From: Myxococcota bacterium
GTDB lineage: Bacteria > Myxococcota_A > UBA796 > CAJQPC01
NCBI GenBank assembly: GCA_023150845.1
Contig: JAKLKD010000016.1
Span: 1 to 52,388 of the forward strand
Direction: 5' to 3'
Length of the DNA: 52,388 nt
How positions within the stretch are numbered: the first letter of the stretch is position 1; each line of letters opens with the position of its first letter. The position numbers and the translations under genes are program-made. This document shows, one piece after another, positions 39,622 to 41,394 of the stretch. The notes beneath the pieces are model-generated. The model saw only the letters and a list, made by a program, of their open reading frames with translations, ran no database searches and was not told the DNA's origin.

Positions 39622-40161
39622 ATGATCCCCTTCCGGCTCCGGCCGCTCACCCCCGACGACCTCGACCACCTCGTCACCTTGGACCAAGATCCCGAGGTGA
39701 CACGCTACATCAACGGGGGACAGGCGACGCCACGCGCCGCCTACGTCGAGCTCCTGCTCCCCCGGATGCTCGGCGCGGCCACCCGCCCGGGCCTGGGCTT
39801 CTTCGCCGTGGAGTCCCCAGAGGGCGACTTCATGGGCTGGGTTCACCTGCGAGAGGACAGCTTCGAGCCCCGCTACGCGGAGATCGGCTACCGCCTCGCG
39901 CGGGCTTACTGGGGCCAAGGCGTCGCCACGGCGGCGTCGCGGCTGCTCATGGCGCGGGCCTTTGAGGAGCTGGGCTTTGAGGTGGTGAGCGCCCGCACCC
40001 TGCTTGAGAACCGAGCGTCGCGGCGGGTGATGGAGAAGCTCGGCCTCAGCGAGTCCGGGCGCTTCGTATACCCGGCGCGCACGGTGGCGGGGCTCACGAC
40101 GCCGGAGCTTCCTGCGGTGTTGTACACCCTTCATCGCGGCGACTGGGCGGCCCCTCGTTGA
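39622..40161 (+). CDS. GNAT-family N-acetyltransferase (RimJ/RimL-like)
   Basis: 179 aa. Starts FRLRPLTPDDLDHLVTLDQDPEVTRYINGG, the RimJ/RimL-type opening. Motif A for acetyl-CoA binding is AEIGYRLARAYWGQGVATAAS, and motif B follows with ARTLLENRASRRVMEKLGLSESG. Transfers an acetyl group to an amine; the substrate (ribosomal protein, small molecule or antibiotic) cannot be told from sequence. It stands alone on the plus strand and converges with the small Rpn-tail ORF, with nine bases between the stops. Confidence 0.92.
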   Translation: MIPFRLRPLTPDDLDHLVTLDQDPEVTRYINGGQATPRAAYVELLLPRMLGAATRPGLGFFAVESPEGDFMGWVHLREDSFEPRYAEIGYRLARAYWGQGVATAASRLLMARAFEELGFEVVSARTLLENRASRRVMEKLGLSESGRFVYPARTVAGLTTPELPAVLYTLHRGDWAAPR

Positions 40162-40170
40162 GGCCGCGCA

Positions 40171-40449
40171 TCAGGCCGACGAGCCGCCCTCAAACACCTC
40201 GGCCAACGAGCGCGCGTCCAAGAGGCGTGAGGTCCACAGGTTCAGCTCGTCGAGCTGCGCGGCCTCCACACGACCGGCGACCTCCGGCGGCAAGCTCCCG
40301 AAGCGCTGGCGCAGGAGCCGGACCAGCAGCTCACGGACGCCGAGCGCTTTGCCGAGCTCTTTGCCAAGCTCTTTGCCGCGCGCCTCGATCGCGGCCTCTT
40401 GGCGGGCGTCGATGGCGCGAAGAAACTCGCTCTCGGGCTGCCAGTCCTT
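40171..40449 (-). repeat. Direct repeat copy A (3' end of the Rpn-like gene)
   Basis: About 279 bases nearly identical to 40462-40764 in the same orientation, differing by two 12-base gaps and scattered substitutions. The intact reading frame in both copies shows either recent duplication or selection. Confidence 0.85.
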
Positions 40450-40455
40450 AAACAT
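40171..40455 (-). CDS. Stand-alone duplicate of the C-terminal domain of the Rpn-like nuclease
   Basis: 94 aa, nearly identical to the last about 100 residues of the 310-aa protein encoded just upstream. It differs by two 4-residue gaps (a GEAR-type unit and AAKG) and a few substitutions (A/Q, D/E). It has its own ATG, and its ribosome site GAGG overlaps the TGA stop of the long gene (six bases between stop and ATG), so translation is probably coupled. It lacks the N-terminal nuclease core. Duplication could have left a dead fragment, but the open frame, start and ribosome site are intact. It may bind the matching domain of the full-length protein (inference from Rpn small-protein biology). 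Confidence 0.7.
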   Translation of the reverse strand: MFKDWQPESEFLRAIDARQEAAIEARGKELGKELGKALGVRELLVRLLRQRFGSLPPEVAGRVEAAQLDELNLWTSRLLDARSLAEVFEGGSSA

Positions 40456-40461
40456 TACGCC

Positions 40462-40764
40462 TCAGGCCGACGAGCCGCCCTTCGCGGCGCCCTCAAACAC
40501 CTCGGCCAACGAGCGCGCCTCCAAGAGGCGTGAGGTCCACAGGTTCAGCTCGTCGAGCTGCGCGGCCTCTACGCGCCCGGCGACCTCCGGCGGCAAGCTC
40601 CCGAAGCGCTGGCGCAGGAGCCGGACCAGCAGCTCACGGACGCCGAGCTGTTTACCGAGCTCTTTGCCGAGCTCTTTCCCGCGCGCCTCACCACGCGCCT
40701 CGATCGCGGCCTCTTGGCGGGCGTCGATGGCGCGAAGAAACTCGCTCTCGGGCTGCCAGTCTTT
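40462..40764 (-). repeat. Direct repeat copy B (inside the full-length Rpn-like gene)
   Basis: About 303 bases forming the 3' end of the 310-aa gene, repeated immediately downstream as copy A. Homology begins at the codons for KDWQPES. Confidence 0.85.
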
Positions 40765-41394
40765 GATCATCAGCTTCTCCAGCGCGCGCCGCGCGGCGCG
40801 GTTGAGGTGTTGGAGGATAAGGTCAGTGTACAGCCGACGGCGCTCGGCGTCCAGTGTGCGCGCGGCCTCCGCCGCCACCCGCCCGACTTGGGCGCCTACC
40901 TTACGCCGCCCATGCGCCAACGCCGACAAGACCGCGATCTCTGGGTTCTCTTGCGCCTGGGCGAGCTCGGTCACCACCGGCAGGCTCTTGGGGCCGATCA
41001 CGACGGGGCGTAAGGTGCCCGTGATCCCGACAGGGACGGGCTGAGCGGCCCAGCGCGCCGTGGACTCGTTCAGGGTGAGCACGAGCAAGGCCACCTTCCC
41101 GCGCCGCTGGGATTGCGCGACGGAGACATACACCGGCCAGGAGTAGGCCTTGGTGGGGTCGGGCTGGAGCTGGGCCTCGACGATGACGGTCATCTCGGTG
41201 GCCCCGGTGAGCCTCACGACGACGTCAGCGCGGTACTCCGGCGCGGCGGACTGGGAGAGATCCCCCGGGAGAAGCTCCCCTTGAACCTCCTCAGCGCTCG
41301 GCAGCAGGCGCGCGGACGCCAACAGCTCCGCGGCGAGGTGCGGCCGCGCGTGAAACAGCTCACAGAGGGTCTGGTGCAAGGCAGAAGGCATCAT
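40462..41394 (-). CDS. Rpn/PDDEXK-family putative nuclease
   Basis: 310 aa. The N-terminal half has a PD-(D/E)XK-like core: D57 in YRADVVVRL and E73-x-Q75 in MTVIVEAQLQP, the ExQ form used by Rpn/transposase_31-like proteins. The middle (about 175-210) is helical. The C-terminal 100 residues carry Lys/Glu/Gly-rich short repeats (GEARGKELGKELGKQ) and a helical tail with LLRQRFGSLPPEVAGRVEAA, found in many multi-copy proteins of this kind. An AGGAG site precedes the ATG. Rpn proteins are recombination-promoting DNases, and some act in phage defence. The family call rests on motif shape, not a search. The last third is duplicated as the next ORF. Confidence 0.75.
   Translation of the reverse strand: MMPSALHQTLCELFHARPHLAAELLASARLLPSAEEVQGELLPGDLSQSAAPEYRADVVVRLTGATEMTVIVEAQLQPDPTKAYSWPVYVSVAQSQRRGKVALLVLTLNESTARWAAQPVPVGITGTLRPVVIGPKSLPVVTELAQAQENPEIAVLSALAHGRRKVGAQVGRVAAEAARTLDAERRRLYTDLILQHLNRAARRALEKLMIKDWQPESEFLRAIDARQEAAIEARGEARGKELGKELGKQLGVRELLVRLLRQRFGSLPPEVAGRVEAAQLDELNLWTSRLLEARSLAEVFEGAAKGGSSA

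Follow-up and report, generated by a model that had tools for sequence, protein, structure and literature searches.

Organization of the locus

The window, i.e., the whole stretch of 52,388 nucleotides that was analyzed, carries on its minus strand a long gene for an RpnL-like, divergent PD-(D/E)XK protein with a DUF4351 tail (40462..41394, 310 aa), followed on the same strand by a mini-gene for a free-standing RpnS-like DUF4351 protein (40171..40455, 94 aa). The predicted N-terminal nuclease core of the long protein spans residues 1-140 (40975..41394, minus strand), with D57, E73, and Q75 as motif residues and structural matches over residues 1-138. Its tail contains an internal RpnS-like ORF, presumably translated, that runs from the ATG of M209 to the shared stop codon (40462..40770, minus strand, 102 aa) and whose start aligns with that of the mini-gene. 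A GGAG six nucleotides before this ATG (40777..40780, minus strand) is its likely ribosome site. The corresponding site of the mini-gene is likely to be a GAGG (40460..40463, minus strand) that shares bases with the long-gene TGA (40462-40464), as an earlier note on this DNA had stated. The two genes are coupled through the junction TGAGGCGTAATG, which comprises the long-gene stop, this GAGG, four bases, and the ATG of the mini-gene. On the plus strand, a gene for a GNAT acetyltransferase (39622-40161) converges on the mini-gene, with 9 bp between its end and the mini-gene stop.

The duplication of the tail is evident at the DNA level. Comparison of the window with itself revealed a direct repeat of 226 nt (40161-40386 and 40464-40689, 92% identity) and another of 116 nt (40340-40455 and 40655-40770, 90% identity), and their length and identity exclude a chance match. 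The earlier note had described the last 100 residues of the long protein as repeated in a 94-aa ORF; the repetition was confirmed, and the duplicated part was found to comprise 102 aa, namely, residues 209-310, beginning at the internal ATG with its own GGAG. All 94 codons of the mini-gene align with the long tail, with two in-frame gaps of 12 nt (four residues) each: the mini-gene is without one EARG tetrad of the helix and one AAKG near the end, both of which are present in the long tail. In consequence of the former, the tetrad array of the long helix has five units (EARG EARG KELG KELG KQLG, 40642..40701, minus strand), and that of the mini-gene has four, one fewer (EARG KELG KELG KALG, 40339..40386, minus strand). 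The start peptides are MFKDWQPESEF in the mini-gene and MIKDWQPESEF in the long gene (residues 209-219), and the 12 substitutions in the alignment are 8 synonymous and 4 nonsynonymous ones. Pfam recognizes DUF4351 in both copies, at residues 247-298 of the long protein and in the mini-gene product with an E value of 3.1e-07 (30.8 bits, cut-off 25). The genome is a draft of 444 contigs, but the two copies are not identical, and an assembly error that collapsed or expanded one and the same repeat is therefore unlikely.

Relationship of the long protein to Rpn nucleases

Several lines of evidence bear out the earlier designation of the long protein as Rpn-like. Alignment of its family to canonical Rpn proteins using hhalign gave a probability of 97.9% (E value of 5e-13, 290 columns), to which the shared tail contributes; the canonical alignment combined E. 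coli RpnE with five long proteins from the window's genus, and the two of the five that were checked both match PF04754. The residues D57, E73, and Q75 are invariant across 13 aligned relatives of the long protein. In RpnA, the PD-(D/E)XQ residues are D63, E82, and Q84, the final glutamine being characteristic of the Rpn family (PMC5350276). E73 and Q75 align with the canonical E-x-Q in the hhalign comparison, and the equivalence of D57 to RpnA D63 was read from the motif. The long protein itself had no match to PF04754 at an E value of up to 1, DUF4351 being its sole Pfam match, and TIGR01784 aligned at the catalytic motif with an E value of 0.28 and 10.9 bits, far under its cut-off of 52.1.

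The AlphaFold model (pLDDT 82) contains a helix at residues 218-264. Its VIA-align matches were EndoMS/NucS-type nucleases with Z scores of 8.7 and 8.5, over residues 1-138, and further structural matches were the restriction enzymes PaqCI and BspD6I and other PD-(D/E)XK enzymes; Foldseek alone gave weak matches (best E value of 0.028). Sequence and model together identify the long protein as a divergent relative of Rpn, outside PF04754 and with a predicted PD-(D/E)XK fold; it is a probable DNA-cutting defense protein. PADLOC matched neither it nor the mini-gene product. RpnA requires D11 (PMC5350276), and the aligned place is occupied by Q8 in the long protein and by E, D, K, R, or Q in its relatives, so that nuclease activity of the long protein is not assured. 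The same N-terminal branch was found in Myxococcota and in actinomycetes (Nocardia and Microbispora). A search of genome contigs with the single long protein as query returned zero loci, and one with the 13-sequence alignment returned 41.

The mini-gene is very probably a duplicated RpnS

In E. coli, RpnS is made from an internal start within the nuclease gene (PMC10327210). Internal starts of this kind are frequent among the relatives of the long gene: an in-frame Shine-Dalgarno sequence with ATG (SD+ATG) was found in the tail interval of 71 of 107 DUF4351-tailed long genes scanned from the phylum, versus 8 of 214 control intervals of equal size taken upstream in the same genes. The loci retrieved with the long-protein alignment form a second, named set, which partly overlaps the first and gave 33 of 40 versus 1 of 80 controls. 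The P values of these scans overstate independence, since the genes are related, but the contrast is large nonetheless. The mini-gene begins at the position equivalent to M209 and is thus a duplicated RpnS rather than a different route to a small protein. In the earlier note, the second ORF was proposed as such a different route to a toxin-inhibitor pair; that it replaces the intragenic small protein is not supported, as the long gene keeps its internal start and separate RpnS genes have already been published (PMC10327210). We consider the mini-gene very probably an RpnS-type duplicate of the long-gene C-terminus. Its product may act on its own nuclease, a prospect that we rate at somewhat below even.

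The substitutions of the window pair give a low dN/dS of 0.17 (Fisher P of 0.002; P of 0.03 against a neutral-mini model in which half of the changes fall in an unconstrained copy). For seven close pairs, the pooled value was 0.43 (P of 0.15 against the same model); locus L018 was left out of this comparison, its alignment being out of register (4% identity). The pooled ratio was considered as proof of functional minis and rejected as such, being compatible with neutrality. The predicted structure of the mini-gene product (pLDDT 80) has helices at residues 8-52, 57-65, 68-78, and 84-88. A Foldseek search with this model returned nothing at an E value of up to 0.001, and the RpnA-S crystal structure 7TH0, a three-helix bundle, was absent from the results. 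A search of solved structures with the mini sequence likewise gave nothing convincing, and a YpaA query finds RpnA 7TH0 with an E value of 3.4e-04. The tetrads begin about 23 residues past the start, in the five-unit array of the long gene and in the four-unit array of the mini-gene; RpnS antitoxins are characterized by a variable number of 4-aa repeats 8-20 residues past the start.

Recurrence in Myxococcota and actinomycetes

Of 377 genomes from the phylum, 45 contain the DUF4351 family PF14261. When the surroundings of these places were searched with a profile grown from seeds, 108 long genes were found, 103 of them with at least 500 nt downstream, and 12 of these 103 are followed by a mini. 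Initially 14 loci were flagged, of which L105 (a 31-aa fragment) and L138 (two domains, one overlapping ORF) were dropped; L064 stands outside the 12, its long gene being cut by the contig start. Minis follow 6 of the 13 long genes of the window's genus versus 6 of 90 elsewhere (Fisher P of 0.0008), a comparison slightly biased in that some congener loci entered the survey through their similarity to the window protein. In the named set, a downstream tail copy was found behind 6 of 40 long genes (L222, L230, L239, L248, L249, and L214, the last of which coincides with L018), five of the six being from actinomycetes; not counted were the tandem full-length copies at L225 and L244 and a match at L228 that lies on the wrong strand and has an E value of 0.01. 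For most minis the closest match is the long gene of their own locus, an indication of separate duplications; this does not hold for L065, L160, the L069/L179 pair, and L063, whose two units are near-identical. Arrays also occur: the long gene of L179 is followed by three minis, and those of L069, L065, and L160 by two each.

Several side observations concern these loci. L134 (G240:C7:152800-160200) has three tandem full-length rpn-like genes whose last ~50 residues are identical and whose helix tetrad arrays differ. The mini at L018:1172-1477 resembles its own long tail over the last ~45 residues (74% in the domain), and its helix part is quite different, a pattern as after partial gene conversion; the scan of the named set found no internal SD+ATG in the L018 long gene. 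In several draft genomes, contigs end in DUF4351 tail repeats, and arrays are probably undercounted in short-read assemblies.

The orthologue of the long gene in the only congener ends at residue 179, at a contig end and before the repeat, and a downstream flank of this orthologue was not found in the congener genome. More can be learned from a sister rpn locus that is syntenic in the window's own genome (L069, C370) and the congener (L179, C128), with DNA identities of 86% over 2.9 kb and 80% over 2.3 kb. Its long proteins are 87% identical, and its minis number two in L069 versus three in L179. The identity from mini to mini is only 48-62%, so that they diverge far faster than the nuclease part. 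The presence of minis in both congeners, together with their low identity, indicates that the arrays are kept but change fast.

Helix-length mismatch and tail exchange

For RpnC, only RpnS with an equal number of 4-aa repeats blocked the nuclease (PMC10327210, Fig. 4D legend). Among 16 long-mini pairs, the helix length differs in 14 and is equal in two (L230 and the second mini of L160). In the nine pairs with tails at least 80% identical (the window, both L063 units, L064, L066, L067, L068, L230, and L239), eight have helices of unequal length, and in seven of these the offset is a multiple of four residues. The rpnE/ypaA loci of E. coli gave the same picture: among 28 rpnE loci, picked nonrandomly for differing match patterns, the 22 loci with both copies readable provided 11 distinct repeat-number combinations, none of which is equal (in K-12, rpnE has 0 and ypaA 1). 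Random pairing of these 11 combinations would yield 0.91 matches and zero matches with a P of 0.33; active selection for mismatch in E. coli was considered and rejected on this basis. Matching of repeat numbers is thus not maintained, which is hard to reconcile with a simple extra antitoxin. A statement of this mismatch was not found in the main text and legends of PMC10327210, nor was a further paper on free-standing RpnS found. A natural matched case is L230:3464-3920 of Nocardia flavorosea, where the mini has the helix length of the long gene and a different tetrad sequence.

The suggestion of the earlier note that such copies could serve C-terminal exchange found a counterpart in E. coli. 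All 22 two-copy loci have an rpnE-type end on the long gene and a ypaA-type end on the small one, and in all five single-copy rpnE loci that were read, the long gene itself has the ypaA-type end, the outcome to be expected of a recombination event that joins the two copies and deletes the intervening segment. A single-copy pattern (one place, 446-470 bp) was seen in 16 of 40 evenly spaced rows from 5,371 E. coli genomes. We read the single-copy alleles as recombined tails. RefSeq marks the downstream rpnS as incomplete or as a pseudogene in many E. coli strains (L187, L188, L195, and others), and the ORF from the internal-type start is intact there.

Possible roles of the mini-gene

We favor, with some reserve, an account in which the mini-gene encodes a free-standing second, non-identical RpnS that arose by tandem duplication and that also feeds tail exchange. 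In this account, tandem duplication of the segment from internal start to stop of an Rpn-like nuclease gene generated the mini-gene, and the locus has three predicted products, i.e., the nuclease RpnL, an internal RpnS that starts at M209 and shares the nuclease's helix, and a 94-aa RpnS' from the coupled ORF, with an oligomerization helix one 4-residue unit shorter. The small proteins may pair with the nuclease via the tetrad helix and keep it inactive until infection or another stress releases it. Because its helix length differs, RpnS' is read as a second pairing specificity and not as more of the same antitoxin; it could be a partial or conditional inhibitor or the partner of another tail variant. 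Under the RpnC rule, should it hold for this locus, the difference of one tetrad would leave RpnS' unable to block its own nuclease. The tandem copies may in turn be a substrate for recombination that replaces the nuclease tail. Expression, binding, inhibition, and phage defense in this organism are what we infer. More tentatively, free-standing RpnS proteins may be helix-length variants rather than surplus antitoxin, forming arrays of alternative tails (up to three per nuclease) that are usually unmatched to the resident nuclease and that would represent other pairing specificities, swapped on by recombination.

Other explanations have to be weighed against this account. The mini-gene might provide plain dosage, as an extra antitoxin of the same specificity that ensures an excess of inhibitor over nuclease, and the coupled translation, the published function of RpnS, and the conservation of DUF4351 in both copies would fit such a role. 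However, matched pairs would be expected under selection for matching, whereas 14 of 16 pairs and all 11 E. coli combinations are mismatched, contrary to the equal-number rule (PMC10327210), which makes this explanation rather unlikely. A better case, though still a doubtful one, can be made for a mini-gene that is mainly donor sequence with little protein function, where deletion between copies swaps the nuclease tail together with its pairing specificity. The ends of the five single-copy and 22 two-copy E. coli alleles, the frequency of single-copy patterns (16 of 40 rows), and the differing number and fast divergence of the sister-locus minis (two versus three) are what this explanation would predict. 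On the other hand, theory predicts only weak selection for future exchange, the dN/dS of the window pair is low, and the YpaA protein is made in E. coli (PMC10327210).

A fast change of repeat numbers would suit a neutral by-product, i.e., a short-lived, functionless tandem duplicate arising from frequent recombination of rpn tails. The tandem full-length duplications of L134, the pooled dN/dS of 0.43, and the E. coli repeat numbers, which resemble independent draws (0.91 matches expected, P of 0.33 for zero), are in line with this. The open frame with its ribosome site and the window dN/dS of 0.17 speak against it, as do the presence of minis behind 6 of the genus's 13 long genes and also in Nocardia and the intact minis at the sister locus of two congeners, and we consider this explanation improbable. 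Finally, two strain variants of the tail might have been joined in tandem during metagenome assembly, for which the 444-contig draft and the tail repeats at contig ends in several genomes could be cited. Yet the junction yields a coupled ORF with a ribosome site, and the same arrangement exists in many other genomes, among them the complete chromosome of E. coli K-12, so that an artefact is highly improbable.

In the anti-phage toxin-antitoxin system RpnL/RpnS, the toxin gene usually also encodes the antitoxin. The data indicate that tandem duplications beginning at the internal start have repeatedly given rise to a second small protein, in an N-terminal branch of the family outside PF04754 that is found in Myxococcota and actinomycetes. 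The frequent mismatch turns the equal-repeat rule into a direct question, namely, that of the effect of a mismatched RpnS, and the E. coli recombinant alleles are a natural set for the study of tail exchange. If the more tentative reading of helix-length variants is true, arrays of alternative tails would let a nuclease change its tail while its catalytic part stays unchanged.

Comparison with known systems

The separate downstream RpnS gene as such is already known. RpnS binds RpnL in a complex and inhibits it, and some RpnL proteins protect against phage (PMC10327210). Published downstream genes are ypaA behind rpnE and a second rpnCS behind rpnC in some strains; these two cases are of independent origin, and the downstream rpnS has in some instances been lost or fused in E. 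coli (PMC10327210). New are the nuclease branch, the phylum-wide recurrence with arrays, the near-general helix mismatch, and the interpretation of single-copy alleles in E. coli as products of tail recombination.

The closest parallel in E. coli is rpnE-ypaA, which shares with the window a small ORF at most 12 nt after the long gene, a start equivalent to the internal one, and tetrads in the first helix; in the complete K-12 chromosome, ypaA starts at the equivalent of the rpnE internal start, with a one-tetrad difference. In contrast, rpnE belongs to PF04754 and its tail has no match to PF14261, whereas the N-terminus of the window protein falls outside PF04754 and its tail is DUF4351. RpnA-L/RpnA-S (PMC10327210; 7TH0) is similar in that a C-terminal small protein with a long-helix oligomerization domain is made from an internal start, but no downstream rpnA copy is described in the main text and legends of PMC10327210, and RpnA has D11 where the window protein has Q8. 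Within the genus, the canonical Rpn loci L068, L069, L175, and L179 have tails that are DUF4351-type by profile match and coupled or overlapping minis at or near the internal start, but their N-terminus is of the PF04754 type (checked for L068) and their duplications were other events. The N-terminal branch, internal start, and downstream mini of the window are all shared by Nocardia puris, N. flavorosea, and N. xishanensis, where the helices differ by +4, 0, and -4 aa, respectively.
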